Source: Loktanella sp. (lineage in GTDB: Bacteria > Pseudomonadota > Alphaproteobacteria > Rhodobacterales > Rhodobacteraceae). From it: DNA of 64,000 nt. The stretch covers positions 62,001 to 126,000 of the forward strand of contig JAFPBO010000022.1 in the NCBI GenBank assembly GCA_017390475.1, given 5' to 3'. Below the pieces are notes generated by a model that was given only the letters and a program-made list of their open reading frames with translations, made no database searches and had not been told where the DNA came from. This document shows, one piece after another, positions 37,194-51,232 of this stretch. Each line of letters starts with the position of its first letter. The first letter of the stretch is position 1. The translations under genes and the position numbers were made by a program.

Positions 37194-37846
37194 TGCTCTG
37201 TCTCGCTCGGATCAGGGGGCCAGTCGGCATGCGCTTGCACGGAAAACCGCATGCCCGCATGGTCCAGCCCGCAGAATTCGGCGCAAAGCCCTTCATACGT
37301 GCCCGGCATATCCGCCTGCAGTCGGGTGCGGTTGGTGCGGCCGGGGATCGCATCCATCTTGCCAGCCAGTCGCGGCACCCAGAAGGAATGGATCACATCC
37401 TGCGAGGTGATCAGCACATCAACCGGCCGGCCCGCAGGGATATGCAACAGATCGGTCGTTTCAACTACGCTGCCGTCCGGTGTTTCATAAGCAAAAGCCC
37501 AGCCCCATTGAAACGCATGAGCGCGCACGGTGACTGCGTCATCATTGCGCGGCTGGATGCGTTCACCGACCCAGAGCCCTGCGCCCAAAAGCAAGGTCAG
37601 AACGACCATCGAAAACCACAGCCCCATGCCATGTGTCCAGACCCTTGGTCGCGTTTCTGACGGGCGGCGAAAACCCAAAGCGATCAGCACGACCACCATG
37701 GCGGTGATTAGACCGGCGCCCACCAGCATAACCCACCACAGCCAGGCAATATCTGTCGCTACCGGCCCGGCGGGGGCCAATGCTGATAGCGGCGTGTCGC
37801 AACCAGCGACCAGCAGGGTGGGGGCTAGGAAAACAGCGCGCTTCAT
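37190..37846 (-). CDS. coxB: Cytochrome c oxidase subunit II
   Basis: About 218 residues from the ATG at 37846, which overlaps the upstream stop as ATGA. A lipobox-like VAGC lies near residue 16, so it may be a lipoprotein. Two membrane helices follow (WLWWVMLVGAGLITAMVVVLIALG and WFSMVVLTLLLGAGLWVG). The CuA site is complete: His in VIHSFWVP and CAEFCGLDHAGM. It takes electrons from cytochrome c. No fused cytochrome c domain is present. Confidence 0.88.
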   Translation of the reverse strand: MKRAVFLAPTLLVAGCDTPLSALAPAGPVATDIAWLWWVMLVGAGLITAMVVVLIALGFRRPSETRPRVWTHGMGLWFSMVVLTLLLGAGLWVGERIQPRNDDAVTVRAHAFQWGWAFAYETPDGSVVETTDLLHIPAGRPVDVLITSQDVIHSFWVPRLAGKMDAIPGRTNRTRLQADMPGTYEGLCAEFCGLDHAGMRFSVQAHADWPPDPSETEQ

Positions 37847-38349
37847 AGTGGGTCCCATCGTGATGGCAGTTGGTTGCCGCGCGGCTCCTGCATGAAATCG
37901 GGAAAAATCGCGCTGATATCCTGTAGCCCCGGCTTGGCCAGCACCAGAAACAGTACCAGCCCGATCAGCGGGATGATCCCCAGCAGGGCCAGCCCGACAG
38001 GCGGCAGTCGAAAGGTTCCGCGGCCTTCGCCGGCCTGCACGATCAGATGGCCCAGCCAGATGTGCAGCAGCACCATACTCGCGACCGCAATCAGCTTGGC
38101 CATCATCCAGACATCCAGCACCTCCAATGCGAAAATCAGCACTGTACCGCTGCTGACCGCAATCACGGCAGCGGGTGAAAGGGCGCAGGTATAGCTGTAA
38201 TGTGTCAGCCAGCGGAATTCGGTGAAACCGGCCTGTGTTTTAATCTCGTCCCGACGGCCATAGATATGCATCATGACAGGCAGCAAAATCAGCCCTGCGC
38301 ACCAGGCCGACAGCGCCGTAATATGTAGCGCCTTGACGATGGCGATCAT
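37843..38349 (-). CDS. CopD/HemJ-like integral membrane protein
   Basis: 168 residues from the ATG at 38349 (ATGA overlap with the ctaG stop); the frame upstream of it is non-coding in character. It has four or five helices with conserved His in KALHITALSAWCAGL and VLLHIWLGHLIV, as in CopD-type copper import proteins and the HemJ-like UPF0093 group. In an oxidase operon, copper delivery or heme handling is the likely job. The exact family needs a profile search. Confidence 0.65.
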   Translation of the reverse strand: MIAIVKALHITALSAWCAGLILLPVMMHIYGRRDEIKTQAGFTEFRWLTHYSYTCALSPAAVIAVSSGTVLIFALEVLDVWMMAKLIAVASMVLLHIWLGHLIVQAGEGRGTFRLPPVGLALLGIIPLIGLVLFLVLAKPGLQDISAIFPDFMQEPRGNQLPSRWDPL

Positions 38350-39062
38350 GCGCGCAGCCCTTCGCGGAACAGCCGCCAGGCAAGCAGAGCAGCAACAATC
38401 GCGACAGGTACCATTCCCGGCACCCACATGATCAGCCCGGCCAGTTGCTGATCTTCCAGCGCGCTAAGCCCGAAACGTTCTGCATGCGCCAGATGTTCAA
38501 GGTAGAATGGGTATTGCGCAAATGTCAAAAGCGCGCCCAACAGGCCCATCTGCCCGACCAGACCCACCAGCCAAACAATTGCCCGGTGATCGCGCGCCTG
38601 CAGCACGGCTGACCAAAGCGCCCAAGCCGACAGGATGAGGGCAAGCTGAAGCAGCCAGTAAACCGCCACTGACTCCCATGCGGCGCTATAGGCGGCGGGC
38701 ATGTGCCACAGCCACAACACTGCTGACAGGGCGGCAAAGGCAGGCACGATCGCGACCCGGACCAGTGGAAAGGCAATCGCGAGCGCGGGCGCCAGTGCGC
38801 CGAACACGACCAGATGGTGAATTGTGCGGGCGGAAAACAAGGCTACGCTCATCGCGCAGAGGGGCGAGACAAAGGCGACTACCGTCGCAAACCCCACCAG
38901 GGCAAAGGCTTTTTGCCGTTTTCGGTCGCTGTTGCGCAAGGCAATAGTGCCGCTGGCAAAGGTGACCAGCAAAGCCAAGATCAGAAACGGGTCAAGGTTC
39001 CAAGCCCAAAGCCAGTCGGCGGGGGTTGGCGCGGGGCCACAATAAGGCATCTGGTTTTGCAT
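38346..39062 (-). CDS. ctaG: CtaG-type cytochrome c oxidase assembly protein (caa3_CtaG family)
   Basis: About 238 residues from MQNQMPYCGPAP at 39062. Seven helices with the His motifs TIHHLVVFG and LWLWHMPAAYSAAW that mark the Bacillus-type CtaG family, distinct from Cox11. The family is needed for CuA/CuB assembly of caa3 oxidases. It is the first gene of the five-gene oxidase operon and has an EcfG-type promoter match 25 bases upstream. The longer frame to 39170 would run through that promoter and is rejected. Confidence 0.8.
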   Translation of the reverse strand: MQNQMPYCGPAPTPADWLWAWNLDPFLILALLVTFASGTIALRNSDRKRQKAFALVGFATVVAFVSPLCAMSVALFSARTIHHLVVFGALAPALAIAFPLVRVAIVPAFAALSAVLWLWHMPAAYSAAWESVAVYWLLQLALILSAWALWSAVLQARDHRAIVWLVGLVGQMGLLGALLTFAQYPFYLEHLAHAERFGLSALEDQQLAGLIMWVPGMVPVAIVAALLAWRLFREGLRA

Positions 39063-39086: not shown

Positions 39087-39112
39087 AACGCAACGAGGCG
39101 TGCCATGGTTCC
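39087..39112 (-). promoter_or_regulatory. EcfG-type promoter upstream of the ctaG-cox operon
   Basis: On the minus strand GGAAC (39112-39108) is followed after 17 bases by CGTT (39090-39087). The general stress sigma consensus in alphaproteobacteria is GGAAC-N16/17-CGTT. The -10 end lies 24 bases before the ctaG ATG, a sensible leader. The other matches here have 16-base spacers, so this one is slightly different. Confidence 0.6.
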
Positions 39113-39194
39113 ACGGCGCGCCAGATTTTTTGATAAAGCCCAAAGCGAAAGGCGCCGACCCTAAGGTCAACGCCCTGTTTTGTTGCTGACGGTA

Positions 39195-39272
39195 TTAAAA
39201 GATACCGAACAGGAACAAAAGAATGATAATTGGAATCGGGATGCCGATCAGCCATAGCAGAATACCGCGCAT
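39195..39272 (-). CDS. 25-residue hydrophobic peptide
   Basis: The ATG at 39272 has AAAGGAA 8 bases upstream and opens a 25-codon frame that is one membrane segment (MRGILLWLIGIPIPIIILLF then a short LFGIF end). I recall similar tiny proteins with an IPIPII core in other proteobacteria but cannot name a family. It has its own EcfG-type promoter 48 bases upstream and no partner gene. Likely a small membrane stress protein. Confidence 0.6.
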   Translation of the reverse strand: MRGILLWLIGIPIPIIILLFLFGIF

Positions 39273-39319
39273 TTTATTTCCTTTCACGATCAAATCGTTT
39301 GCAATGTATCTGGTCAATA

Positions 39320-39344
39320 AACGCACGATTTGAAAAAAGGTTCC
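39320..39344 (-). promoter_or_regulatory. EcfG-type promoter for the 25-residue peptide gene
   Basis: GGAAC (39344-39340), a 16-base spacer and CGTT (39323-39320) on the minus strand. The only gene downstream before other elements is the tiny hydrophobic peptide. Confidence 0.7.
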
Positions 39345-39382
39345 TGCAGTATACGCAGAATAATCGTCTGGCAAAACAGGAA

Positions 39383-39404
39383 AGGCCCGCCGTGTGGCGG
39401 GCCT
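39383..39404 (-). terminator. Terminator after the PRC-barrel gene
   Basis: Arms AGGCCCGCC and GGCGGGCCT pair perfectly (9 bp) round a 4-base loop, 22 bases after the PRC-barrel stop. On the minus strand short T-runs follow (TTTCCTGTTTT). This separates it from the peptide gene promoter. Confidence 0.75.
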
Positions 39405-39425
39405 CATGTTCAGGAAGAAAGCAGA

Positions 39426-40343
39426 TTAGCCTTCATATTCTGGCATCGCTTCCAGTTGTTCCTGTGTCGCGCTGACCTGCACGCGCACGTCGTCGCTTTC
39501 AGGGTTCCACATCACATCAACATCGTTGATGTCCAGCGCCACGGTATAGGATCCAAGACCCAGGAAACCGCCCACATCCATCACCGCATGGGTGACCTCA
39601 CCGCCGTCGCCCAGTACCAGATCATCGACTGTCGCGATATTGTCGCCTGTGGTGTCATAGACATTGGCACCCAACAGCCGGTCGGCCGTCAGTTCAGTCG
39701 CCGGGATCGGCGCATAGCCGTCCATGGCGTCATCGGCTGCGGTATCATTCATCGCGGTGTCGCCAGCCGGCGCTGTCATCGGATCAGCTGTCGGCGTCAT
39801 TGCGCCGTCATTGTAGTTACGCGATTCAAAGCCAGTTGTCAGCTGTGTCTCGTCCCATTCGGCCAGGTTTTCCAGCTCTTCACGGGTCATTGTCGCTACC
39901 ACGGAGAAGTCATCCAGATCTTCGGCTGTGGTTTCGTCAGAAACGAAGTACAGATCTTCCAGATCAACCATCACAGTGCGTGCGCCGATGCCCAAGAAGC
40001 CACCGATGTCCAGCAGGACACCGCGCAATTCGCCGTCTTGGGTTAGGACAACGTCATCGATGTTACCGACATTATCCCAGTTGTCGCGGCCAGCGGTGAA
40101 GGTCGCATCGCTTTCCCAGCGCAGGCTCCGGTCGGTCGCCACTGTTTCGTTCAGCGCACGTGCCTCTTCGGTATCAAGCGTATAGAGGCTTTTGCCGGTG
40201 AAGTCGCTGACAAGAAACGCGGGCACATTCGCGCCGGTCTGGGTCATTTCAACATCAGCGCCGGGGGCTGTGCCCTCTGTCTGGGCAAAAGCGCCCATTG
40301 AGGTTGCAGCAACAAGTGCGGTCGTCAGCATAAGCTTTTTCAT
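39426..40343 (-). CDS. Secreted protein with two PRC-barrel domains
   Basis: 305 residues. A signal peptide (MKKLMLTTALVAATSMGAFA) precedes two related PRC-barrel units. The first is around residues 40-130 (DFTGKSLYTLD to GARTVMVDLEDLYFV), the second around 210-290 (LLGANVYDTTGDNIATVDDLVLGDGG to GSYTVALDINDVDV). Both contain the GGFLG(I/L)G(A/S) turn. An acidic, Ala-Met-rich linker lies between them. Soluble PRC-barrel proteins of this sort are common but uncharacterised in Rhodobacteraceae. GGAG precedes the ATG and an EcfG-type promoter lies upstream, so it is probably a stress-induced envelope protein. Confidence 0.82.
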   Translation of the reverse strand: MKKLMLTTALVAATSMGAFAQTEGTAPGADVEMTQTGANVPAFLVSDFTGKSLYTLDTEEARALNETVATDRSLRWESDATFTAGRDNWDNVGNIDDVVLTQDGELRGVLLDIGGFLGIGARTVMVDLEDLYFVSDETTAEDLDDFSVVATMTREELENLAEWDETQLTTGFESRNYNDGAMTPTADPMTAPAGDTAMNDTAADDAMDGYAPIPATELTADRLLGANVYDTTGDNIATVDDLVLGDGGEVTHAVMDVGGFLGLGSYTVALDINDVDVMWNPESDDVRVQVSATQEQLEAMPEYEG

Positions 40344-40390
40344 AATCGTCTCCTAAGTTCAGTCAGCCATTTCGGCGGCTCTGATAATGA

Positions 40391-40415
40391 AACGCTGGTC
40401 TGTCGAAACTGTTCC
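40391..40415 (-). promoter_or_regulatory. EcfG-type promoter for the PRC-barrel gene
   Basis: GGAAC (40415-40411), a 16-base spacer and CGTT (40394-40391) on the minus strand, 47 bases before the start codon. The leader between contains the GGAG ribosome site. Confidence 0.75.
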
Positions 40416-40478
40416 TGAATTAATACCTTCCGTAGAGTAATTCGATTATTTTCTGATTAAAATTACTGAAATGAAAAA

Positions 40479-40501
40479 GCCCCCACCGAAAAGGTGGGGG
40501 C
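40479..40501 (-). terminator. Intrinsic terminator after the 72-residue protein gene
   Basis: Arms GCCCCCACC and GGTGGGGGC form a perfect 9-bp stem with a 5-base loop; read on the minus strand it is followed by CTTTTTC. It ends the transcript of the two small genes at 40.5-41.0 kb. Confidence 0.85.
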
Positions 40502-40526
40502 ATTATTGTCGCGAACTAATCGGGTA

Positions 40527-40745
40527 TCAGCGCCGTTCACGCGACCTTTCGCGCGCTGGTTTGTCGCCGACATCATCCAGCGCACCGGATGGCGCCTGAT
40601 CCGTATGTTCGATCTTTTGCATACCGGGATTGGGCGTCTGGTCCGTTGGATAGTTTGGCTCTGTCGCGTTTTCGTTCTTCAGCTTCAGCGCCTTTTTTGA
40701 CAGGTCTTCCTGCGATGGCGTATCTGATTTCTTCGCGTTGGTCAT
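40527..40745 (-). CDS. 72-residue hydrophilic protein
   Basis: From the ATG at 40745 with AAGAAGGGGG upstream. The protein is highly charged and lacks hydrophobic segments (TNAKKSDTPSQEDLSKKALK at the start, ARERSRERR at the end), with PNYPTDQTPNPGM in the middle. It looks intrinsically disordered, like many small stress-induced proteins. No family recognised. It lies 41 bases after the PLDc_N-like gene and shares its stress promoter and the terminator that follows. Confidence 0.6.
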   Translation of the reverse strand: MTNAKKSDTPSQEDLSKKALKLKNENATEPNYPTDQTPNPGMQKIEHTDQAPSGALDDVGDKPARERSRERR

Positions 40746-40786
40746 GGTGACCCCCTTCTTCTGAATGATGTGGTCAGTGCTGATGC

Positions 40787-40966
40787 TCAGGCCTTCTTGG
40801 GCCCGGCCAGAAACCAGATGATCAGGCCAACAACCGGGAATACCAGCACCAACAGGATCCACAGAACCTTATAGCCCTGCGTCGCAGTCGACCCGAGGAT
40901 CGAAACCGCCGCCCAGACCACCAAAGCGAGGTGGATAAGTCCGAGTAAACCTGTGTAATTCGTCAT
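40787..40966 (-). CDS. Small membrane protein with PLDc_N-like (phospholipase D N-terminal) domain
   Basis: 59 residues from the ATG at 40966. Two membrane segments (LLGLIHLALVVWAAVSILGS and VLWILLVLVFPVVGLIIWFL) with the W(I/V)(L)(L)V(L)VFPVVGLIIWFLAGP pattern of the stand-alone PLDc_N family. Function unknown. An EcfG-type promoter lies 36 bases upstream. Confidence 0.75.
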   Translation of the reverse strand: MTNYTGLLGLIHLALVVWAAVSILGSTATQGYKVLWILLVLVFPVVGLIIWFLAGPKKA

Positions 40967-41001
40967 TGTACCTACATCCTTGTGTATCTCGTTATTTTGG
41001 C

Positions 41002-41026
41002 AACGCGCCACCGCCGGTTTTGTTCC
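41002..41026 (-). promoter_or_regulatory. EcfG-type promoter for the PLDc_N-like and 72-residue protein genes
   Basis: GGAAC (41026-41022), a 16-base spacer and CGTT (41005-41002) on the minus strand. It lies in the gap after the gdhA stop and directs transcription of the two small genes. Confidence 0.75.
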
Positions 41027-41041
41027 CGATAAATGAACGGC

Positions 41042-42394
41042 CTAGATGGCCCCACCATCGACGACAGCCTGCGCCAGTTTGCGATATCCCGCGACATTGG
41101 CGGCCCGGCGATAGTCGATCTGGCCGGTTTCGGTACAGCAGCTGCTACGCTCTGCCTTCAGTCGCGCATGGATATCGCACATGATATCATGCAAGGCCTG
41201 ATCCACCCGCGCGGGCGACCAGCGGTCAAAGCTGGCGTTTTGCTGCATTTCCAGGCCCGACACCGCCACGCCGCCGGCATTGGCGGCCTTGCCGGGTGCC
41301 TGGGTGACCCCCATTTTGCTCAGATGCGCCTCGGCCTGCGCGGTCAGGGGCATGTTCGCGCCTTCGGCCAGAAACCGGCAACCGCTGTCGGCAAGGGCTT
41401 TGGCATCCGCCAGTTCGACCTCGTTCTGGGTGGCACAGGGCAGAGCAATATCGGGATCCATGCCCCATGGCCGCGTGTTTTCCAGAAAGGTCACGCCCAG
41501 ATCTTTGGCCGGTGTATAGGCCTGGTCGTCGCTGGCCCCCAATACCCAGTCCAGAGCGTCATGGTTAAACCCGTCGGCAGCGTGCCATGTGCCTGCGCGC
41601 CCGGACAGAGTAATCACCTTTGCGCCCATCTGCATCGCTTTGCGCGCCGCATGGCTGGATACATTGCCGCGCCCGGATATAGCGAGACGTTTGCCGTCGA
41701 AATCCTCGCCCTGTTCCGCCAGCATGGCGGCCGTGAAATAGATCAGGCCATATCCTGTTGCCTCTGCCCGGACATCGCTGCCGCCCAGTGGTAAGGGCTT
41801 GCCGGTCATCGCCCCGCCCCAACGGCGGGCATATTGCATCCAGGCGCGCTGCATCAGGCCGATTTCAACGCCACTGACGCCGATATCGCCAGCAGGCACA
41901 TCACGGTCCGGGCCGATATGGGCCGAAAGCTCCGCCATGAAGGCCAGCACGAACCGTTCAATTTCGGCCATAGAACGACCTGCAGGGTCAAAATCTGCGC
42001 CACCTTTGGCAGCGCCGAGTGGCAGCCCGGTCAATGCATTCTTGAATGCCTGTTCAAAGGCCAGAAATTTCAGCACAGAGCGCGACAGCCCCGGCACCCA
42101 GCGCAACCCGCCCTTGTAAGGGCCAAGCAGGTTGGAATGCTGCACGCGCCAGCCCTGATTGATCTGCACATCGCCCGCGTCATCGCGCCACGTGATGCGG
42201 AAACTGATGATCCGGTCGGCCTCGCACAGCCGTTCCAGCGCGCGGGCGGCGGTAAAAGCATGGCTGGCTTTCTCGATCGTCAGGACATCGCTGGCGACTT
42301 CTTTGACAGCTTGCAGAAATTCATCGTCGCCACGATGACGCGGGGTGATTTGATCCATGAACTGATCAAGCAGGGCGGTGGTACGCGTGGTCAT
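41042..42394 (-). CDS. gdhA: Glutamate dehydrogenase (Glu/Leu/Phe/Val dehydrogenase family)
   Basis: 450 residues from the ATG at 42394; the frame runs further upstream over a coupled small ORF and is trimmed. The catalytic region GPYKGGLRWVPG and the active-site GAAKGGADFDP lysine motif are intact, and the nucleotide fold starts at LAISGRGNVSSHAARKAMQ. Length and the NADP-type pattern suggest a hexameric, NADP-linked anabolic enzyme making glutamate from 2-oxoglutarate and ammonia. It could be on the nepR-kinase transcript, since all genes from 46.4 kb down are closely spaced. Confidence 0.9.
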   Translation of the reverse strand: MTTRTTALLDQFMDQITPRHRGDDEFLQAVKEVASDVLTIEKASHAFTAARALERLCEADRIISFRITWRDDAGDVQINQGWRVQHSNLLGPYKGGLRWVPGLSRSVLKFLAFEQAFKNALTGLPLGAAKGGADFDPAGRSMAEIERFVLAFMAELSAHIGPDRDVPAGDIGVSGVEIGLMQRAWMQYARRWGGAMTGKPLPLGGSDVRAEATGYGLIYFTAAMLAEQGEDFDGKRLAISGRGNVSSHAARKAMQMGAKVITLSGRAGTWHAADGFNHDALDWVLGASDDQAYTPAKDLGVTFLENTRPWGMDPDIALPCATQNEVELADAKALADSGCRFLAEGANMPLTAQAEAHLSKMGVTQAPGKAANAGGVAVSGLEMQQNASFDRWSPARVDQALHDIMCDIHARLKAERSSCCTETGQIDYRRAANVAGYRKLAQAVVDGGAI

Positions 42395-42417
42395 AATTAT
42401 CCTTTCAGAGCATGGAG

Positions 42418-42510
42418 TCAGGCCAGCGAGAGCGCCAACCAGCCCGCCAACACAATAGCCAGCAAGGTCAGGGAAATCGCGAGGATCAGGGCAAGTTTCG
42501 GGCGCATCAT
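42418..42510 (-). CDS. 30-residue membrane peptide coupled to the oxidoreductase gene
   Basis: The ATG at 42510 overlaps the stop of the upstream oxidoreductase as TGATG. The 30 codons encode one basic-ended membrane helix (MMRPKLALILAISLTLLAIV then LAGWLALSLA). The stop is 23 bases before gdhA. Stop-start overlap is the main reason to believe it is translated. No family recognised. Confidence 0.45.
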   Translation of the reverse strand: MMRPKLALILAISLTLLAIVLAGWLALSLA

Positions 42511-43895
42511 CAGACCAGTTCAAAAATTTCGTAATCGATATGCGACGCTGAAACCCCCAAAGAGCCAAGATCCGCGGTCACCCCAGCGATCATCGGCCCC
42601 GGACCACACAGCAGATGCGGCCAGTCGCGGGTCTGTGCAGGCAGGTGCCGTGCCAGCGTTTTGTCATCGATCCGGCCGGTTTCGCCGTCCCAGTCATTCG
42701 GCGGTTCATCCAGCACATGCACCAATGTCAGATTGAGCCTGCTTTTCATGTCTGACAATTCGTCGCGGAAACTGGCCTCATCCCATGACGGATTGCCATA
42801 GATCAGGATGATCGGCCGTTTGTCGCCGCGCGCGTCGAGCGCATGCAGGTTCGACAGGATCGGCGTGATGCCGACGCCGCCTGCAATCATGACAAAGCCT
42901 TCGGCTTCGGCCAACCGGTCGATGGAGAAAGCACCATAAGGGCCATCGACATAGGCACGCGCGCCTACTGGCGTTTTGGCCAATACGCTGCTGTGATCGC
43001 CCAGCGGTTTGATTGAGAATGCGATATTGGGGCCTTTTTCCGGTGCCGTCGAGATGGTGAACGGATGTTCGATCAGCGAATAAGGCGACCTTTCCACTTT
43101 GAGCCATGCAAACTGGCCGGGTTTCCAGCGGTGCAAGCCGCGCCCCTCCGGTGCCAGTTCCAGCCGGTGAACACCGCCATATTCTGCGGTATTGGCGACA
43201 ACGCGCCAAGGATTGCGCGCCTGCATGCTGGGCCGCAAAAGATGCGTGTAGGCCAATACTCCGATGAACCCAGCAGTAACCCCCAGCCACAACCAGCGTT
43301 TGGCTGGTGTATCGGTCAGATTGCCGACGCCCAGCACATGCGCGACTGCAGCGGTCATGCCGACCAGCGCCAGCGTCAGATGCAGGGCGCGCCACCATTC
43401 ATGGCGCAGATGCAGCCGTTTGCGGAATTCCGAAGTCACGATCAGTCCCAGAAAGCAACCCATCGCGAGGCGGCCTGCGGTCAGCTCCCAGCGTGCCTCC
43501 AGAGGGTTCAGCACACCAAGTGCAGGTTGGTGAAACACATAAATCAGCGCGAAATGCCCCAGCACAAGCAGGACAGCGCCCCAGCTGAGATAGCGATGCG
43601 CCAGATAGACGATATCTGCGCCGAAAGGATGGGTGATCCACCGCAGGCGACCGGTCATTGCGAATTGCAGGGCGAGAAGAGCCAGCGCACCAAAGCCAAG
43701 GCCCATGCTGAAATCCCAGATCAGCCCGCCTGATGGTGGGCGCTCTCCGGTTGACAGGATGGCAAAGGGCACCACAACAGCCAAAACACCCAGCAGAACA
43801 ATTGCTACGCCATGGGCTAGCACGGTATACGGTCGGTCATGGTCAGGTTGCCGTGCCTTAGCGGTGTCGGCGGGCGTCTGGACTGTGTCGTTCAT
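42510..43895 (-). CDS. Ferric reductase-like transmembrane oxidoreductase with FAD/NAD(P) domain
   Basis: 461 residues. The N-terminal 240 residues hold about six helices with heme-ligand-type His (GHFALIYVFHQ, HLRHEWWRALHLTLALVG), as in ferric reductase/NOX b-type membrane domains. The C-terminal part is ferredoxin-NADP reductase-like: the FAD site is around YSLIEHPFTIS and the NAD(P) site is EGFVMIAGGVGITPILSNL, ending in IDYEIFELV. It would move electrons from NAD(P)H across or into the membrane. Substrate unknown. It lies 44 bases after the DUF2231 gene. Confidence 0.82.
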   Translation of the reverse strand: MNDTVQTPADTAKARQPDHDRPYTVLAHGVAIVLLGVLAVVVPFAILSTGERPPSGGLIWDFSMGLGFGALALLALQFAMTGRLRWITHPFGADIVYLAHRYLSWGAVLLVLGHFALIYVFHQPALGVLNPLEARWELTAGRLAMGCFLGLIVTSEFRKRLHLRHEWWRALHLTLALVGMTAAVAHVLGVGNLTDTPAKRWLWLGVTAGFIGVLAYTHLLRPSMQARNPWRVVANTAEYGGVHRLELAPEGRGLHRWKPGQFAWLKVERSPYSLIEHPFTISTAPEKGPNIAFSIKPLGDHSSVLAKTPVGARAYVDGPYGAFSIDRLAEAEGFVMIAGGVGITPILSNLHALDARGDKRPIILIYGNPSWDEASFRDELSDMKSRLNLTLVHVLDEPPNDWDGETGRIDDKTLARHLPAQTRDWPHLLCGPGPMIAGVTADLGSLGVSASHIDYEIFELV

Positions 43896-43903
43896 GACCC
43901 GTC

Positions 43904-43928
43904 AACCCGCGACACAGGCCTTTGTTCC
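43904..43928 (-). promoter_or_regulatory. Weak EcfG-type match before the oxidoreductase gene
   Basis: GGAAC (43928-43924), 16 bases, then GGTT (43907-43904) instead of CGTT. Transcription would start almost at the start codon. It is listed because of its setting; it could be chance. Confidence 0.3.
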
Positions 43929-43939
43929 GGTGTCGGGGA

Positions 43940-44440
43940 TTATTCGGGCCGTTTGGTGCCGATCTGATAGTCGAACACGAGTTTCCCGCCGTGCCAACCG
44001 GTGACGGCGGTAAGCCCAGCGGCCACCAGCGACATCAACAGGCCAAGCGGCAGCACCGCTGCCTCGTAATCGCCGATGCGCCAAGCCCAGTTCATACCCA
44101 GGATCGAAAGCAACATCACCGCCAGAATGAAATGGGTCCAGCTGGCGGCGCGGTTGCGGATGCCTTTTACGACCAGCAGCTCTACTGTGCCGGTGATGCC
44201 CGCGGTCACGCCGATCAGAAATGCGCCAAAGGCCGCCCAGCCCGCCGCGCGCGGCCAGAACGCATCGCCGGTCCACCAATACAGCAGATCCGCGCCGAGT
44301 ACTGACATCGTCAAGGCAATCGGAAAGGCGACCAGCATCGCATGCAGCGGGTGACCGGCAATCGCGATGCGGGATTCGGTCGCATGCAGCGCGCGGTTTT
44401 CTTCGACCGGGTCCGTCAGTTCTGTTTTCGACTTGGTCAT
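43940..44440 (-). CDS. DUF2231 domain membrane protein
   Basis: 166 residues with four helices and the DUF2231 N-terminal His motif (IAGHPLHAMLVAFPIALTMSVLGADLLYW). C-terminal LTAVTGWHGGKLVFDYQIGT carries a second conserved His. Members are often near heme or electron-transfer genes and are thought to be membrane redox-associated, which fits the ferric-reductase-like neighbour. It starts 4 bases after the kinase gene stops, with GGTGACTCC as ribosome site. Confidence 0.8.
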   Translation of the reverse strand: MTKSKTELTDPVEENRALHATESRIAIAGHPLHAMLVAFPIALTMSVLGADLLYWWTGDAFWPRAAGWAAFGAFLIGVTAGITGTVELLVVKGIRNRAASWTHFILAVMLLSILGMNWAWRIGDYEAAVLPLGLLMSLVAAGLTAVTGWHGGKLVFDYQIGTKRPE

Positions 44441-44444
44441 GGAG

Positions 44445-46199
44445 TCACCTTTTGGATGGGGCCTGCGGCGGCAGCGGCCCGGTTGGGGGATGCGCCGCGT
44501 TCATCCCGGCATCATCGACGTGCAACCGGATTTCCCAACCCGGACCGGCTTCATCATTGACCGGGCCCACGTCCAGCCTGGCACCGATCTGCATCGCAAA
44601 GGCGGTCATCAATTCGCTGCCCAGTCCTTTGCTGATTGTCTCGGCACGCTGTTCAGACAGCGAATTGCGGATCCGCAATTCGACGGCACCGTCATTGGCG
44701 CTTATACTTGCGACAACCCTTGGCGCATCGCTGCCAGTGGTGGGCGTAGCGTATTTCAGCGCATTGGTCAGCGCCTCTGCAAATAACATCGCGGCGGGAA
44801 TGATCTTGTCGGTGGGCAGGGCCACGGGCTGAAAATGCGTCTCGATGTCCAGCTTGCTGCGATCCGCACCCGCCATCGCCAGCGTATCCTGCAGAATGCT
44901 GTCCAGAAAAGCCGTCGCGTCGATATCGGACACCCGGCTTTCCTCGTAAAGCGCGCGGTGGATCGAGGCCAGCGCGCGGACCCGCGCCTGCACCCCCTTG
45001 AGGATGGCACGGGCTTCGGGGTCGGTCATCCGGCGCATCTGCAGGTTGAGGATCGAGGCGATCAGTTGCAGGTTGTTTTTCACCCGATGGTGGACCTCCA
45101 TCAGCAGCACGGTCTTTTCACGCAAAGCTTCTTCCAGCTCGGTCTCATCACGGCGGATCAGCCGGGCCATTTTGGAAAAGGTGGAATCGATCTCGCGCAG
45201 TTCCGACGGGGCGTCGGTGGGCAGGCGGGCGAAATCGCCCCGATCCCCCAGTGCAAAGCGGCGTAGCTGCGCATTGATCTGCCGCAGGTGGCGGACAACA
45301 AGGTAATGTATCGACAGCATCAGCACCCCGACAGAGGCGATCCACATTGCCACGGGCAGGAACAAGCGGGTGAAATCCGGTCGCAGCAGCGCCCCGACAC
45401 TGTCAGGCCCCCAACTGCCTAATGCAAAAAGCTGACCGGGAATCAGCGTCGCAACGGTAAAAACACGGTCTGAGCCAGACAGGCTGGTGCCGTCGAACAC
45501 ACCTTCGCCCTGTGCAATAAGCTGCTGCAATTCAGCCTCTGCCGGAAGCAGTTCAGCGGCGGCGGGATCGTTGGAATAGGTCAGCGTATGACCGCGGTCA
45601 TTGACCAGATAGACGATTTTTGGATCAGTATTGGGATTTGGCCTGGTTGCGATCAGGTCCAACGTGCTGCGCAGCACTGAAATTGTCAGAAGGCCCAGCA
45701 AGGTTTCGCCGTCATATACCGGGCGATTGATCAGTACCACCGGCATACCCGTCACGCGACCGGATTCCTGAAACCGGAAACTGGCCCGTGGCCGGGCCAT
45801 GCTTTGCTCGAAATTCGCGCTGCCACCAACATTCGTGCCACTGCCTTCCGAAGCGCAAAGCATCAGGCCATCTGGCTGAATAAACCCGGCGAAGGCGAAA
45901 AAGGTGGAAGCGGTGACATAGTCGCTCAGAAAGGTTGAACATGTTTCAGGATCACCCAGACGGTCAACCACGCGGGGGGCCAGGCTGGCCGCTTCTTGGG
46001 CGACGCTGGCCAGCAGCGCGCGCTGGCCGGTGGTGGCATCGACGGTCCGGGCAATCAGTTGGGATTGATTGGCCGCGACCTGCGTTCGCCAACTGGTGTA
46101 TTCGGAATATAGCGCCAAAGACCCGAGCGGCACGATTGCCAGCGTCAGGATCACCGCAAGGCGGGCGGCGAGTTTGTTGCTGAAAATCTGCTTAGGCAC
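44445..46199 (-). CDS. Sensor histidine kinase, HisKA_2 family, with periplasmic sensor domain
   Basis: 584 residues from GTG at 46199. TM1 is at about 10-30, followed by a periplasmic dCache-like sensor of about 240 residues, TM2 near 280-302 and a HAMP-like linker. The phospho-acceptor region is MEVHHRVKNNLQLIASILNLQ, the HisKA_2 form used by PhyR-type kinases. The ATPase domain lies near the C-terminus (AALTNALKYA type at 470-480; SLSEQRAETISKGLGSELM). It is 53 bases after nepR in the same direction. It is the obvious candidate kinase for PhyR; the signal is unknown. Confidence 0.85.
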   Translation of the reverse strand: MPKQIFSNKLAARLAVILTLAIVPLGSLALYSEYTSWRTQVAANQSQLIARTVDATTGQRALLASVAQEAASLAPRVVDRLGDPETCSTFLSDYVTASTFFAFAGFIQPDGLMLCASEGSGTNVGGSANFEQSMARPRASFRFQESGRVTGMPVVLINRPVYDGETLLGLLTISVLRSTLDLIATRPNPNTDPKIVYLVNDRGHTLTYSNDPAAAELLPAEAELQQLIAQGEGVFDGTSLSGSDRVFTVATLIPGQLFALGSWGPDSVGALLRPDFTRLFLPVAMWIASVGVLMLSIHYLVVRHLRQINAQLRRFALGDRGDFARLPTDAPSELREIDSTFSKMARLIRRDETELEEALREKTVLLMEVHHRVKNNLQLIASILNLQMRRMTDPEARAILKGVQARVRALASIHRALYEESRVSDIDATAFLDSILQDTLAMAGADRSKLDIETHFQPVALPTDKIIPAAMLFAEALTNALKYATPTTGSDAPRVVASISANDGAVELRIRNSLSEQRAETISKGLGSELMTAFAMQIGARLDVGPVNDEAGPGWEIRLHVDDAGMNAAHPPTGPLPPQAPSKR

Positions 46200-46252
46200 G
46201 CTGTGCTAACATCCTTTCGGCTGTCGCCTGCGCGGCGCCGGACCCGTTTTCG

Positions 46253-46435
46253 TTATCGGTCTGATCGCGATTGCGCCTCTTTGCTGCGCAAGGCATCCAG
46301 CAATTGCGTGAGGCTTTCGGGCAAAGCACTGGATGCTTCGTCAGCATAAAGCCGTTTGAGGTTTTCATCGATCTGGCGTGCGAGTTCCCGTGGCACCTCT
46401 GCTCTTGACCGTTCATTTTTACCATTCATCATCAT
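46253..46435 (-). CDS. nepR: NepR family anti-sigma factor
   Basis: 60 residues with the NepR core: ELARQIDENLKRLYADEASS then LPESLTQLLDALRSKE, two helices that grip EcfG or PhyR. NepR holds EcfG inactive until phosphorylated PhyR takes it away. Several ATGs are clustered at the start (46435, 46432). In most alphaproteobacteria ecfG follows nepR; here the next gene is a histidine kinase and no sigma gene is visible. It has its own EcfG-type promoter. Confidence 0.82.
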   Translation of the reverse strand: MMMNGKNERSRAEVPRELARQIDENLKRLYADEASSALPESLTQLLDALRSKEAQSRSDR

Positions 46436-46510
46436 CTCGACCCGTTTTTATCTTGCCATCATGCTATGTCCCATCTGCCTTCGCAACATCAGAGAAATCA
46501 TATATATCCG

Positions 46511-46542
46511 GGAACCAAACGCCGTGGGTCGCGTTAGGTTCC
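46511..46542. promoter_or_regulatory. Overlapping divergent EcfG-type promoters between phyR and nepR
   Basis: Plus strand: GGAAC 46511-46515, 16 bases, CGTT 46532-46535, facing phyR. Minus strand: GGAAC 46542-46538, 16 bases, CGTT 46521-46518, facing nepR. The two promoters share 18 bases and form a near-perfect palindrome (arms GGAACCAAACG and CGTTAGGTTCC, one mismatch). One polymerase on either strand would block the other. Confidence 0.85.
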
Positions 46543-46636
46543 CGTTCTGCGAAGATTTTCTATGACCTTTCGCAGCTGACAAACAATGTAACGGTGGAGA
46601 AGAAACAGCGTGAAGCAAGCCGTATTGGGAGAAGAA

Positions 46637-47431
46637 ATGTCGATGTCTTTACAGGTCGCTAAGGAATTGCCTTTCCTGCGTCGCTACGCACGCGCGCTGA
46701 CCGGATCACAACAAAGCGGTGACCGCTATGCCGCCGCCACATTAGAAGCCATTTTAGAAGATCGCGCCTTGCTTGACATGGGCATGTCGCCGAAGCTGGC
46801 GCTGTTTAAGGCATTCCATTCCGTCTGGGAAACCACTGGCGCGCCGGTCGGCACAGGCCCGGTTGATGGGATCGAAGGACGTGCGCAGAAACTGCTGGCC
46901 GGTCTGACGCCGAACACGCGCGAAACATTGTTGCTGCGCGCGCTAGAAGAGTTTTCCTATGCCGATATCGCCCAGATCATCGCCGTCAGCGAAGACGAGG
47001 CGTGCGAATTGCTGGCAATCGCCTACCGCGAAATGTCGAAATCGGTTCAGGGCCGGATCCAGATCATCGAAGACGAACCGCTGATCGCGCTCGATATCAA
47101 GAGTATCGTTACCGAGATGGGCCATGACGTGACGGGCATTGCGCGCACCCATACAGAGGCTGTCGCACTGGGCAGCCGTGAACGCCCTGATCTGATTTTG
47201 GCTGATATCCATCTTGCCGACAACTCATCGGGTGTGGATGCCGTGGTGGAATTGCTGCGTGAATATCCCGATACGCCGGTGATTTTCATCACCGCTTATC
47301 CAGAACGTCTGTTGACCGGTGAAAAGCCTGAGCCCGCGTTCCTCATCCCCAAACCCTTTGACGAAGAACAGGTGCGCTCTGCTGTGTCGCAAGCGATGTT
47401 CTTTGCCTCTACACAGACGTTGAACGCCTGA
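46637..47431 (+). CDS. phyR: PhyR, general stress response regulator (sigma-like plus receiver domain)
   Basis: About 264 residues from the ATG at 46637 (GGGAG 6 bases upstream); GTG at 46610 is an alternative. The N-terminal half is the ECF-sigma-like mimic (LPFLRRYARALTGSQQSGDRY; ALEEFSYADIAQIIAVSEDEAC as the region 4-like helix-turn-helix). The C-terminal receiver starts at IQIIEDEPLIALDIK, with the phosphorylated Asp in LILADIHLAD and the Lys in LIPKPFDEEQV. Phosphorylated PhyR sequesters NepR. It diverges from nepR and has its own terminator. Confidence 0.93.
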   Translation: MSMSLQVAKELPFLRRYARALTGSQQSGDRYAAATLEAILEDRALLDMGMSPKLALFKAFHSVWETTGAPVGTGPVDGIEGRAQKLLAGLTPNTRETLLLRALEEFSYADIAQIIAVSEDEACELLAIAYREMSKSVQGRIQIIEDEPLIALDIKSIVTEMGHDVTGIARTHTEAVALGSRERPDLILADIHLADNSSGVDAVVELLREYPDTPVIFITAYPERLLTGEKPEPAFLIPKPFDEEQVRSAVSQAMFFASTQTLNA

Positions 47432-47458
47432 TCTGTAAACGTCTGAAGTAACCTGAAA

Positions 47459-47486
47459 AACCCGCGCACTGCGCGGGTTTTTGTTT
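47459..47486 (+). terminator. Intrinsic terminator after phyR
   Basis: Arms AACCCGCGC and GCGCGGGTT with a 3-base loop, followed by TTTTGTTTT, 28 bases after the phyR stop. It separates phyR from the next stress promoter 17 bases later. Confidence 0.9.
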
Positions 47487-47502
47487 TGGCTCGATCTGTC
47501 CC

Positions 47503-47527
47503 GGAACCTTTGCCGGGTTTGACCGTT
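47503..47527 (+). promoter_or_regulatory. EcfG-type promoter for the DUF1328/DUF2383 pair
   Basis: GGAAC (47503-47507), 16 bases, CGTT (47524-47527). It is 47 bases before the DUF1328 start and directly follows the phyR terminator. Confidence 0.78.
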
Positions 47528-47574
47528 CTTTTAGCAATGGTTGCTTAGCAACGTTCTATTCGAAAGGAAAAAAT

Positions 47575-47748
47575 ATGCTTGGATGGGCTTTAACATTTCT
47601 GATCGTGGCACTGGTCGCGGCAGCACTTGGTTTCTCTGGTATCGCCGGTGCGGCCTCGTCGATCGCACAGATCCTGTTCGTCATCTTCCTGGTGCTGTTC
47701 GTCGTGGCGATGATCGCTCGCGCCGTCCGCGGTCAGCCCCCGGTCTGA
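47575..47748 (+). CDS. DUF1328 small membrane protein
   Basis: 57 residues, two hydrophobic segments ([20 protein letters not shown] and [19 protein letters not shown]) joined by SGIAGAASS, and a basic tail. This is the DUF1328/YtjA pattern, a widespread small membrane protein family often induced by stress. AAAGGAAAAA lies before the ATG. The gene is followed 25 bases later by the DUF2383 gene. Confidence 0.85.
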
Positions 47749-47773
47749 TCACCCTCATTGAAGGAGCATCCCG

Positions 47774-48271
47774 ATGCATCCCACCGACTACAAAAACCTG
47801 AACCCGCAACTGGCCGCTGACAGCGCGCTGCAGCCTGATGATCCAAAGCCGCAGCCAGATGATGAACGGCTGGACCTGATCGCCAAGGTGCATACCGGCG
47901 TGCTGGACACGATCAGCGGATTTGACACGCTGGTTGAAAAGGCCGAACCGTCCTTCAAGCCCGCAGCACAAGCATTTCTGACGATGCATAGTCGGCATGA
48001 AGGTGTGCTGGCGGCCTATCTGGCGCAGGCGGGGCGTGTCCCGGATGAAGACGGATCGTTCTTTGGTACCATCAACCGCGCCGTCATTACGGCGCGGTCG
48101 TGGTTCGACGATATTGACAGCGAAGTCATGGACCGCGTGGCAGAAGGCGAAGAGCAGTTGCTGGAAACCTATGCCGAGGCACGCAATACCGGGCAGACCA
48201 TCGAAGCCAATGCGATGCTGACCGAGCAGATGACAGAAATCACAGCGCTATTGGTCGAACACGGCACCTGA
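47774..48271 (+). CDS. DUF2383 (PA2169-like) four-helix protein
   Basis: 165 residues, all helical. KVHTGVLDTISGFDTLVEKAEPSFK and the C-terminal DRVAEGEEQLLETYAEA are typical of the PA2169/DUF2383 family, which has a ferritin-like helical bundle with conserved acidic/His positions and no known activity. AAGGAG precedes the ATG. Shares the stress promoter with the DUF1328 gene. Stops exactly where the convergent kinase gene ends. Confidence 0.75.
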   Translation: MHPTDYKNLNPQLAADSALQPDDPKPQPDDERLDLIAKVHTGVLDTISGFDTLVEKAEPSFKPAAQAFLTMHSRHEGVLAAYLAQAGRVPDEDGSFFGTINRAVITARSWFDDIDSEVMDRVAEGEEQLLETYAEARNTGQTIEANAMLTEQMTEITALLVEHGT

Positions 48272-49729
48272 TCATGCAGGCCGGGCCTGTCGCGGGCCCG
48301 GCTGTTTTGGATGGGATTGCGGCGCATCCGTCGCCAGCATCGCCGCAACCGGACATTCTAGTGTCCAGATCACGCCGGACGTTTCAAACCTGATCTTTGT
48401 TGTGGCACCCAGCGCCATCGCCAACATATCCTCCAACACGACAGTGCCGAAACCGGTATCGTCCGGCGCGATCACTTGTGGTCCGCCACTTTCCCGCCAT
48501 GTCAGGGTAAAGAGATCGCCCGTGATCTGCCAGTTGACGTCGATCTGCCCGGTAGTATTGGACAGCGCCCCATACTTCCCGGCGTTGGTAGCAAGTTCAT
48601 AAACCGCCATGCCCAGACTTTGCGCCACGTCCGATGATACCCGCATCGGCGGGCCAGCGACACGCAGGCGGCTGCCGGTGAGGCTGGCGAAATAGGTCAG
48701 CTGCGTCTGGATCAGCGCCGCCAGTTCGGGGCTGTCGTCGGGGGAATTGACCAGTAGATCCTGACAGCTGGCCAAGGCCCGCAGTCTTGCGCCGAAATCC
48801 CGCACGAACTGATCCACATCATAGGGTCGCATCTGCCGAAGGATGGATTGCACCACCGCCAGCAGGTTCTTGGACCGGTGATTGACCTCGCGCATCACAA
48901 AGGCCAACTGCTCTTCGCTGCGTTTTCGGTCCGAAATATCTAGTCCGGACGGTACCAGCAGTTCGACATTCCCGTCATCATCCAGCACAGGCGACAACAT
49001 GAAATCAATCGGCATCAGCGCGCCGTCTACCATCCGTATCACGGTGTCGTATCGCTGTTCCTCGCCAGTCGCAGCCAGCGTAATCGCGGCCTGCAATTCA
49101 GCCATGATGACCGGGTCATGCGACCACCAGAAGCAATCCCAGAACTTCTTGCCGATCACATCGGCCCGGCTTAGACCGCCAGCGGCCAAGGCAGGTTTAT
49201 TGGCTTCAATCAGGGTGCCATCGGGCTGCATGACGCCGATCAGCGCAACGGTATTGTCCAGAATCTGACGCAGCCTTGTTTCGCTGGCGCGCAGGCTTTT
49301 TTCCGCGATTACGCGTTCAGTAATATCAATGAAAATGCCGGTCACCCCGGCATAGCAGCCTGCCGCATCCGACACCGCGGCAAACGATCCGCTGACATGA
49401 AACACGCTGTTGTCGTCACGACAAAAGGCCAGTTCGGTCGCGATATGCGGCGTGCCCGATTCCAAAGCCACCATCGCAGTAGCAAAGCTATCGGCGCTGG
49501 CCGGGGCGATCAGATCGGATAGCGGCTGTGGCACAACTATCGCAGCTTCCGCACCGCGCAAAGCCTGCCAGCGCGGATTGGCAAAGCGGATGACACCTTC
49601 TGCATCCACCTCGATGATGGCGGCGGGGGATATATTGACCAACCGGTGCAACAGCGCAAATTGCATGTCACCTTGCTGATCGTTTGCTAGCAAAGTGGAA
49701 CCCGCAGCCGAGGGCTTATCAGGAAGCAT
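48272..49729 (-). CDS. PAS-domain sensor histidine kinase, HWE family
   Basis: About 485 residues from the ATG at 49729 (GAGG 8 bases upstream; GTG at 49747 is possible). There are no membrane helices, so it is cytoplasmic. Two PAS modules (VNISPAAIIEVDAEGVIRFANP; LDNTVALIGVMQPDGTLIEAN) precede the acceptor EVNHRSKNLLAVVQSIL. The ATPase carries AVYELATNAGKYGAL and the HWE-type LTWRESGGP. HWE/HisKA_2 kinases commonly feed PhyR, so with the nepR-linked kinase this is a second candidate input. No EcfG-type site lies upstream. Confidence 0.85.
   Translation of the reverse strand: MLPDKPSAAGSTLLANDQQGDMQFALLHRLVNISPAAIIEVDAEGVIRFANPRWQALRGAEAAIVVPQPLSDLIAPASADSFATAMVALESGTPHIATELAFCRDDNSVFHVSGSFAAVSDAAGCYAGVTGIFIDITERVIAEKSLRASETRLRQILDNTVALIGVMQPDGTLIEANKPALAAGGLSRADVIGKKFWDCFWWSHDPVIMAELQAAITLAATGEEQRYDTVIRMVDGALMPIDFMLSPVLDDDGNVELLVPSGLDISDRKRSEEQLAFVMREVNHRSKNLLAVVQSILRQMRPYDVDQFVRDFGARLRALASCQDLLVNSPDDSPELAALIQTQLTYFASLTGSRLRVAGPPMRVSSDVAQSLGMAVYELATNAGKYGALSNTTGQIDVNWQITGDLFTLTWRESGGPQVIAPDDTGFGTVVLEDMLAMALGATTKIRFETSGVIWTLECPVAAMLATDAPQSHPKQPGPRQARPA
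48280..48308 (+). terminator. Terminator of the DUF1328/DUF2383 transcript, inside the kinase 3' end
   Basis: Arms GCCGGGCC and GGCCCGGC (8 bp) with a 7-base loop, followed by TGTTTT, 9 bases after the DUF2383 stop. It overlaps the last codons of the convergent kinase gene. Confidence 0.65.
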
Positions 49730-49896
49730 GGATAAATCCTCAAGCACAGAAGTGACGTCGCGCCATGATTGTTTCCGGCGAGGAAAAGTTCAACCAGTAT
49801 TGTTGTGCTAAACGCCATGACGTTGCTGCCAAGTTGTTGTTTTATTGACATCGGTATGGCGGAAAATCGCCATAGCAGGTTTAGACCCGGCAGCCG

Positions 49897-49921
49897 GGAA
49901 CTTTTCAACGTTGGCGGCGTT
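49897..49921 (+). promoter_or_regulatory. EcfG-type promoter for the AI-2E family transporter gene
   Basis: GGAAC (49897-49901), 16 bases, CGTT (49918-49921), 36 bases before the TTG start at 49957. It is the only clear element in the 227-base gap between the divergent kinase and transporter genes. Confidence 0.75.
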
Positions 49922-49956
49922 TCAATAGGCTAGCTGAAATCCAACTGGAGAATATT

Positions 49957-51102
49957 TTGTCCGATCGCCCGCCCGCCGACAGCAGGCCCCGGCGCACCGA
50001 ACCCGGTGCGCCCATGGTCCCTTCCGGCAATTTCCTGATTGCACCTGCTTTGACGGGGATTTTGGTTATCCTGAGCCTTGGCGCGGTACATTATGCCAAG
50101 CAGTTCTTGCTGCCTGTCGTGCTGGCGCTTCTGTTGTTCTTCGTCTTCATGCCGCTACAGCGCCGTCTGCAGCGTCTTGGGGTCAATGGCCATCTTGTGG
50201 CCTTGCTGCTCGTCTCTGGCCTGCTGGTCGGGATCGGGGCGATCTTTTTCCTGCTCAGCGGCCCGGTGGTCGAGGTCGCGGAAAACCTGCCCACGATCAT
50301 GAGCGATATCGCCCTGCGGCTCGAAGGGGCGCGCGATGCCATGCTCGCCGCAGGCGAAAGCCTGCGTAGCACCGCCACCACAGAAATTCCTGATCTGCGC
50401 ATCGCGGCCCAATCAGAAGACGAAGACAGCGGTGACCTGCTGGAAGGCGACATGTTGCTCAGCACGGCTGGCAGCGTGCTGATCTATCTGTCAGAGGCAC
50501 CGGCAGTTGTGGCGCAATTGTTTTTTGCCGTGATCCTGCTATTCTTTCTGCTGTCTTCCAGCGACGTGATCTATCTGAAAGTGATCCAGAGCTTTGACGG
50601 ATTCGGCGACAAACGCACCGCGCTGGCTGCCCTTCACGAGGTCGAACAAAAGCTCGGCGGCTATCTGGGCACCGTCACCTTGATCAATACGGGGCTTGGG
50701 GTCTGTATCGGTCTGGCCATGTGGGGGCTGGGCATGCCAGTGCCGCTGTTGTTTGCGGTCCTGGCCTTTGTACTGAATTTCATTCCCTTCATCGGCGCGG
50801 TCATGGGAGTTGTCCTGTCCGGTGCGGTGGCGCTGCTGTGGTTTGACACGGTGTTTCAGGTAGCCATGGTGGCGGGGGTCTATCTGTTGCTGACCGCGCT
50901 GGAAGGTCAGCTAGTCACACCAGCCATGCTGGCGCGCAGGCTGCAGATGAATACCGCGCTGGTGGTGCTGTGTATCGCATTCTGGGCCTGGATGTGGTCG
51001 TTCATGGGAATGGTGATCGCTGTGCCGATGTTGGTCGCATTCCGGGTCATGGCTGAACAGATCCCCAGCTGGCGCAAATTTGCAAATCTGCTCTCGGCCT
51101 GA
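49957..51102 (+). CDS. AI-2E family transporter (PerM-like)
   Basis: 381 residues, about eight helices. Family marks are FFVFMPLQRRLQRLGVNG near residue 70 and FVLNFIPFIGAVMGVVLSG near 270. TTG at 49957 has CTGGAG 7 bases upstream and is the best start. A hydrophilic insert rich in acidic residues (SEDEDSGDLLEGD) lies in the central loop. Substrate unknown. The promoter upstream suggests that it is stress-induced, unlike the paralogue at 33.3 kb, which has no such site. Confidence 0.82.
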   Translation: MSDRPPADSRPRRTEPGAPMVPSGNFLIAPALTGILVILSLGAVHYAKQFLLPVVLALLLFFVFMPLQRRLQRLGVNGHLVALLLVSGLLVGIGAIFFLLSGPVVEVAENLPTIMSDIALRLEGARDAMLAAGESLRSTATTEIPDLRIAAQSEDEDSGDLLEGDMLLSTAGSVLIYLSEAPAVVAQLFFAVILLFFLLSSSDVIYLKVIQSFDGFGDKRTALAALHEVEQKLGGYLGTVTLINTGLGVCIGLAMWGLGMPVPLLFAVLAFVLNFIPFIGAVMGVVLSGAVALLWFDTVFQVAMVAGVYLLLTALEGQLVTPAMLARRLQMNTALVVLCIAFWAWMWSFMGMVIAVPMLVAFRVMAEQIPSWRKFANLLSA

Positions 51103-51132
51103 CAGAAAATCGCGGCAGTAGTCATTTTTGCG

Positions 51133-51157
51133 GGAACAATCTTTGGTGGTTCGCGTT
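51133..51157 (+). promoter_or_regulatory. EcfG-type promoter for the PQQ dehydrogenase gene
   Basis: GGAAC (51133-51137), 16 bases, CGTT (51154-51157), 75 bases before the start. A second GGAAC at 51166 has CGCT at the right distance and is not counted. Confidence 0.72.
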
Positions 51158-51232
51158 GGACAGTTGGAACCTTGTATTTCGCGCTACGCTTTGGTGTAGC
51201 GCAAAACCGGTCCACGGCTACAGGAGATGCGC

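Follow-up and report, generated by a model that had tools for sequence, protein, structure and literature searches.

The stretch of DNA analysed here (the window) comprises 64,000 nucleotides of a Loktanella sp. genome (contig JAFPBO010000022.1, positions 62,001 to 126,000) and contains, between positions 39087 and 51157, an island of promoters of the type read by EcfG, the general stress sigma factor of Alphaproteobacteria. This island is a general-stress-response (GSR) regulatory locus, in which the regulators PhyR and NepR and two HWE/HisKA_2 kinases are ringed by effector genes; the original prediction had named the small effector proteins and overlooked all four regulators. The anti-anti-sigma factor PhyR is encoded at 46610–47431 on the plus strand and combines a sigma-like with a receiver domain (PF22029, PF00072, PF22233; NCBIfam PhyR NF006623, 340 bits with a cut-off of 240). 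Divergent from it lies nepR (46253–46435, minus strand), the gene for a 60-residue anti-sigma factor recognized by the Pfam NepR family (PF18557, 34.2 bits, cut-off 25.7) and without a match in the NCBIfam scan. Downstream of nepR, on the same strand, a HisKA_2/HWE sensor kinase with a dCache-like region (44445–46199) resembles PhyK, the dCache match falling under its cut-off and the NCBIfam PhyK score, 194 bits, under the cut-off of 750. The second kinase, of the PAS-HWE type (PF07536, PF08448), is encoded at 48272–49747 on the minus strand. Both divergent units carry EcfG-type promoters, as judged by sequence and conservation, and the two promoters, 46511–46535 on the plus strand for phyR and 46518–46542 on the minus strand for nepR and the kinase, overlap by 18 bp to form a 32-base palindrome, GGAAC-N2-AACG-N10-CGTT-N2-GTTCC (46511–46542). 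The kind of locus is known; what makes this one worth following is the palindromic promoter and a partner switch without a gene for the sigma factor.

All nine GGAAC-N16/17-CGTT sites reported for the island were recovered at their positions and strands, eight with a 16-base spacer and one (39087–39112) with 17 bases. Besides phyR and the nepR-kinase unit, they precede the genes for DUF1328 and DUF2383 proteins, an AI-2E family transporter, a pyrroloquinoline quinone (PQQ) dehydrogenase, a PLDc_N protein, a PRC-barrel protein and a 25-residue peptide, and a row of genes headed by that for CtaG; their −10 boxes stand 24–82 nt ahead of the start codons assumed here. One more exact match occurs in the window, at 1878–1902, bringing the total to ten. 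In 100 dinucleotide shuffles of the 64-kb window the mean number of matches was 0.83 and the maximum 4, and the nine matches in 12 kb compare with an expectation of about 0.2. When the whole genome (4.13 Mb in 56 contigs) was scanned, 68 exact matches were found (43 N16, 25 N17; their intergenic or coding status is a rough call from open reading frame cover), nine of which fall inside the island, that is, within 0.29% of the genome (binomial P ~7e-13). Among spacers of 10–23 bases, the island contains eight N16 sites, one N17 site and a single match at any other length, an N12 pairing that shares the 39087 site.

Searching genome contigs at the protein level yielded 22 loci. Ten of these, all from Rhodobacteraceae (L109–L117 and L119; PhyR identity 79–89%), share the gene order of the island, with some gaps, up to the contig ends; the isolate names of many of these relatives presumably point to saline or soda lakes. 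Every one of 44 orthologous regions upstream of the nine promoter genes contains a site scoring at least 8/9, at a position within 22 nt of the distance seen in the window, and in these orthologous promoters the boxes are kept while the spacers drift. The scoring took the best site within 220 nt, so that a lone 8/9 score can arise by chance, as the controls indicate: upstream regions of genes from the same loci that have no promoter in the window reached this score in 5 of 36 cases (sORF72 1/2, GDH 1/5, DUF2231 3/8, HK1 0/10, DUF2383 0/7, HWE 0/3, DUF2254 0/1). The first count leaves out one spurious match to the 25-residue peptide (L109, 30% identity, wrong strand) and the ferric-reductase gene, and the second leaves out five HWE rows, apparently cross-hits to the other kinase, and nine EcfG rows, one of them at 8/9. 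Upstream of the ferric-reductase-like gene, by 8 nt, lies a sequence that the original prediction did not list, GGAAC-N16-GGTT (43904–43928, minus strand); it is likely a further EcfG-type promoter, with 6 of 6 orthologous upstream regions scoring at least 8/9. At 20 phyR loci of the same genus (392 kb), sites with N16 (65) and N17 (25) add up to 90, and any other single spacer length between 10 and 23 occurs 0–7 times; on these sequence data, clustering of sites at phyR is a trait of the lineage. The identification of the sites as EcfG-type promoters is supported: their spacing is fixed, they are conserved, and PhyR and NepR are encoded alongside. The view of the island as an unusual cluster of unlinked regulon members is not supported, since the GSR genes lie in the island itself, which is the regulators' own locus, and the sites are similarly grouped at phyR in relatives. 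Within the genus the distribution of PhyR is patchy: a full-length match is present in 22 of 36 genomes, seven of which have two and one three, and absent from the other 14 (one of them, G034, with pieces), some of which are incomplete assemblies.

The overlap of the phyR and nepR promoters extends well beyond the island. Among 51 phyR-centred loci chosen irrespective of overlap, 32 carry two promoters that each score at least 8/9, offset by 7 (17 loci), 6 (14 loci) or 8 bp (one locus), a survey in which L105 and L124 are covered in part and the offset-7 pair of L121 is missing from the count. The exact palindrome is present in 40 of 394 genomes of the family, with no match tabulated for a reversed-pattern control, and a relaxed form in 61 (62 copies), with two genomes for the corresponding control; since the relaxed pattern allows only an AAC–GTT distance of 12, some or all of the offset-6 form (14 loci) escapes it, and the true number among the 394 genomes is at least 61. 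Each of the 62 copies was checked (30 by tblastn on the exact-pattern loci, 4 and 26 on further stretches, and two in this genome), and all lie between phyR and nepR and/or ecfG. The two copies of this genome are found one at each of its GSR loci. PF22029 matches occur in 260 of the 394 genomes, 247 of them over the cut-off; because the weak matches may be ordinary extracytoplasmic function (ECF) sigma factors, the palindrome count refers to all 394 genomes and not to an exact number of PhyR-bearing ones. In a sample of 385 genomes of the class, five of them from the family, counted irrespective of PhyR carriage, the relaxed palindrome was found in this genome and in one non-family genome (G636; 1 of 380). 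The latter copy was rejected as a genuine phyR promoter and treated as chance: it is not at phyR, the reversed control also gave two genomes, and its 3-kb locus contains no NepR or EcfG, only a small response regulator with 27–28% identity to residues 152–266 of the PhyR query, the receiver portion. Searches confined to the openly accessible literature, with passages of PMC6599016 among the text covered, gave no description of phyR/nepR promoters that overlap or form a palindrome. Divergent pairs of EcfG sites also occur in other geometries: the offset between the opposed sites is −9 bp at L076, L077 and L087, and between −33 and −40 bp at seven loci (L077, L080, L083, L084, L085, L087, L120). 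Bidirectional EcfG promoters may be a common feature of the GSR regulon.

In the nine relatives L110–L117 and L119, ecfG lies between nepR and the kinase, and these genes form one group (SH-aLRT, an approximate likelihood ratio support value, 99) that has no member in this genome. At the corresponding position the window, like L109, a Loktanella metagenome-assembled genome (MAG), has a short gap only, of about 53 bp in the window (46200–46252, minus strand), and a search of the window for sigma-70 region 2 gave no match. Since the syntenic group retains ecfG, the gene would have been lost from the lineage of the island; the parsimonious reading is that this happened once a resident EcfG could serve there. 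A second GSR locus, on contig C3, has the canonical arrangement of phyR and nepR-ecfG: it contains phyR, ecfG, a kinase, a NepR match (36 aa, 47%) and EcfG-type sites of its own, and its sigma factor passes the NCBIfam PRK12546 model. The sigma factor that reads the island would have to act in trans and most likely comes from this complete locus. The cluster of sites on C3 (L042, 8112–12747) is smaller, with four EcfG-type sites around phyR, nepR and ecfG: one ahead of phyR, one preceding a putatively DUF883-like gene, and a minus-strand pair close to a gene of PRC-barrel-like type. There too, the phyR/nepR promoters form the palindrome, in its relaxed form.

We regard as highly probable the explanation in which the island is the second GSR locus of the cell, its own ecfG lost and its sigma factor supplied in trans, with phyR and nepR sharing one palindromic promoter. 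By analogy with the partner switch described for other species, stress would lead the nearby HWE/HisKA_2 kinases to phosphorylate PhyR, which would bind NepR and free an EcfG-family sigma factor, most likely that of the C3 locus. Polymerase carrying this sigma factor would then read at least nine promoters in the island, those of phyR and the nepR-kinase unit as well as those of the terminal oxidase genes, the PQQ dehydrogenase and the small envelope proteins. The geometry of the palindrome suggests a mutually exclusive bidirectional promoter: a polymerase bound in one direction would exclude one bound in the other, so that synthesis of PhyR and of NepR would be tied to a single site. More tentatively, with confidence falling a little short of even, we propose that this palindrome, conserved across many genera and mutually exclusive, ties the synthesis of PhyR to that of NepR whatever the level of the sigma factor, and that the device was kept after loss of the sigma gene, so that the positive loop on the sigma factor would be cut here and run via another locus.

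In the canonical alphaproteobacterial PhyR-NepR-EcfG locus, phyR is divergent from a nepR-led operon, with an adjoining kinase and EcfG-dependent promoters for both transcription units (PMC4814048, PMC8103513). The island is alike in the divergence of phyR and nepR, in the kinase alongside and in the EcfG-type promoters on both units, but differs in having no ecfG, at least nine promoters in 12 kb, and divergent promoters fused into one palindrome. Separation of phyR or nepR loci from ecfG, as seen here, is also described for Methylobacterium extorquens AM1, with six ecfG genes, none at the phyR locus (PMC4814048), and for Sphingopyxis granuli, where nepR1 and a second phyR form a divergent pair apart from the ecfG locus (PMC7083833); the paralog sets of these species are different, however, and in the present case the retention of ecfG by a syntenic group points to loss. 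Sinorhizobium meliloti, with RsiA1/A2 and RsiB1/B2 (PMC8103513), likewise has two NepR and two PhyR proteins in one cell, a likeness in paralog number. For the palindrome, the nearest parallel is the sigma-70 bidirectional promoters of Escherichia coli, in which a short symmetrical element directs divergent transcription by competing polymerases and the −10 element is shared, the start sites usually being spaced by 10, 18 or 23 bp, with 18 the most frequent (PMC12825309); by analogy these promoters lend support to mutual exclusion at the palindrome. The palindrome is likewise one short symmetrical element between divergent units, but no shared −10 element of this type was found in it: its two −10 boxes are separate, 10 bp from each other and each near the −35 box of the opposite promoter; transcription is predicted to begin at points about 31 bp apart, presumably with an ECF sigma factor.

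Several observations weigh against parts of this reading. In the genome as a whole the N16/17 count of 68 stands beside 57 for N12/13 and 30 for N19/20, so that the motif alone is weak and many matches elsewhere are probably noise; as a result, the argument is built on how dense the sites are locally, on the specificity of their spacing among relatives and on footprints. Four of the 20 same-genus phyR loci are almost empty of sites (L089 and L093 with none, L082 and L094 with one each), and loci around second phyR paralogs show no clear clustering (two N16 and five N17 sites in 164 kb) and mostly no overlapping promoter pair. In R. sphaeroides, PhyR plays no major part in the GSR, and the start mapped for the nepR-like/ecfG unit lies opposite the phyR coding region (PMC5830050), which indicates that neither the palindrome nor the role of PhyR is universal in the family. 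In addition, three more EcfG-like sigma factors are encoded in the genome, each of which could serve the island; they lie on contigs C24, C1 and C11 and share 49%, 46% and 44% identity with the C3 EcfG. The L109 MAG, which may be incomplete, has orthologs of the C1 and C24 proteins and no C3-type ecfG.

The alternative that survives best, although we consider it unlikely, is that the C1 sigma factor, which has a GGAAC-N16-CGTT site of its own, or the C24 one serves the island, the two GSR loci being partly insulated circuits. L109 speaks for it, as the only other genome found without the island ecfG, but the identity of these proteins to the C3 EcfG is only 46–49%, the C1 sigma factor (the one of the two that was scanned) scores 167 bits with a PRK12546 cut-off of 270, tblastn of 12-kb and 8-kb stretches around the two genes found no NepR or PhyR, and the phyR/nepR palindrome occurs at both GSR loci. 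The C1 gene (L045, 6212–6803), with its site just upstream and a 93.5% identical counterpart in L109, is possibly that of a self-amplifying accessory sigma factor. Far less probable still is that the palindrome serves as the operator of a dimeric regulator, which an inverted repeat at a regulatory gene might otherwise suggest: each half of the palindrome is a full EcfG promoter with the optimal 16-bp spacing, and all 62 family copies lie where phyR and nepR or ecfG diverge. Moreover, across 35 copies the 8 bp at the centre vary and lack self-complementarity (20–26%, with 26–30% in shuffles) and the flanks keep promoter letters only, positions fixed by the pattern being conserved by construction, which argues for two superimposed EcfG promoters rather than an operator. 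The idea that the nine sites merely reflect a short motif recurring by chance in intergenic DNA deserves virtually no weight, for even though other spacings give genome-wide counts of like order, it is contradicted by the local enrichment, by the spacing preference in relatives and already by the 44 conserved upstream regions.

The remaining genes give the putative output of the shared-promoter locus. To the right of phyR, the site at 47503–47527 (plus) precedes the gene for a small DUF1328 membrane protein (47575–47748, plus; PF07043) and probably also serves that for a DUF2383 protein (47774–48271, plus; PF09537); the sites at 49897–49921 and 51133–51157 (both plus) precede the genes for the AI-2E family transporter (49957–51102, plus; PF01594) and for a PQQ dehydrogenase of the glucose/alcohol type (51227–53683, plus; PF01011). 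To the left, all on the minus strand, are a DUF2231 membrane protein gene (43940–44440), the gene for the ferric reductase or FAD-NAD oxidoreductase with its candidate promoter (42510–43895), and a Glu/Leu dehydrogenase gene whose true start is probably within the open reading frame (41042–42568). The site at 41002–41026 then precedes the gene for a small PLDc_N membrane protein (40787–40966; PF13396), which is followed by a gene for a 72-residue hydrophilic protein without a Pfam match (40527–40745), and the site at 40391–40415 precedes that for a double PRC-barrel protein with a signal-like N-terminus (39426–40343; PF05239 in two stretches). The site at 39320–39344 is the EcfG-type promoter of a 25-residue hydrophobic peptide, MRGILLWLIGIPIPIIILLFLFGIF (39195–39272), which is conserved in two relatives (96% identity in L113, 84% in L114), has no NCBIfam match and has no further such counterpart in the motif scan of other phyR loci. 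The N17 site at 39087–39112 precedes the terminal oxidase row of CtaG, UPF0093, COX2 and COX1 (34662–39062), probably an operon. This row, with its EcfG-type promoter, is conserved in L113 and L114 as well, and possibly represents a respiratory branch tied to the stress response.

The original prediction placed the island beside the photosynthesis superoperon, which holds in the window; the adjacency is not kept among relatives. Positions of PufM were compared with those of phyR or ecfG in 11 genomes: it lies elsewhere in seven, either about 0.66 Mb (G029) or 0.3 Mb (G033) from phyR or on a different contig from phyR/ecfG (G007, G011, G018, G062, G064), and was not found in two (G061, G065); adjacency could not be judged in G060 (L109, a short contig) and G063. 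A conserved link to photosynthesis is rejected on these positions, and the adjacency looks incidental. A plasmid origin of contig C9 was likewise unsupported: RepC, the sole replicon type tested, matches on C12 and C19 only.

For the organism, the island amounts to a stress regulon packed around its own regulators. The threshold of a partner-switch response should be fixed by the PhyR-to-NepR ratio, and how the cell holds that ratio is a question of design, for which a conserved promoter that fires in one direction at a time, if that is what the palindrome is, would offer a directly testable means of control. A partner switch without a sigma gene may help explain the multiple phyR, nepR and ecfG paralogs of many Alphaproteobacteria, and the oxidase genes, the PQQ dehydrogenase, the 25-residue peptide and the DUF1328 and PLDc_N proteins provide concrete candidates for stress effectors in the family.

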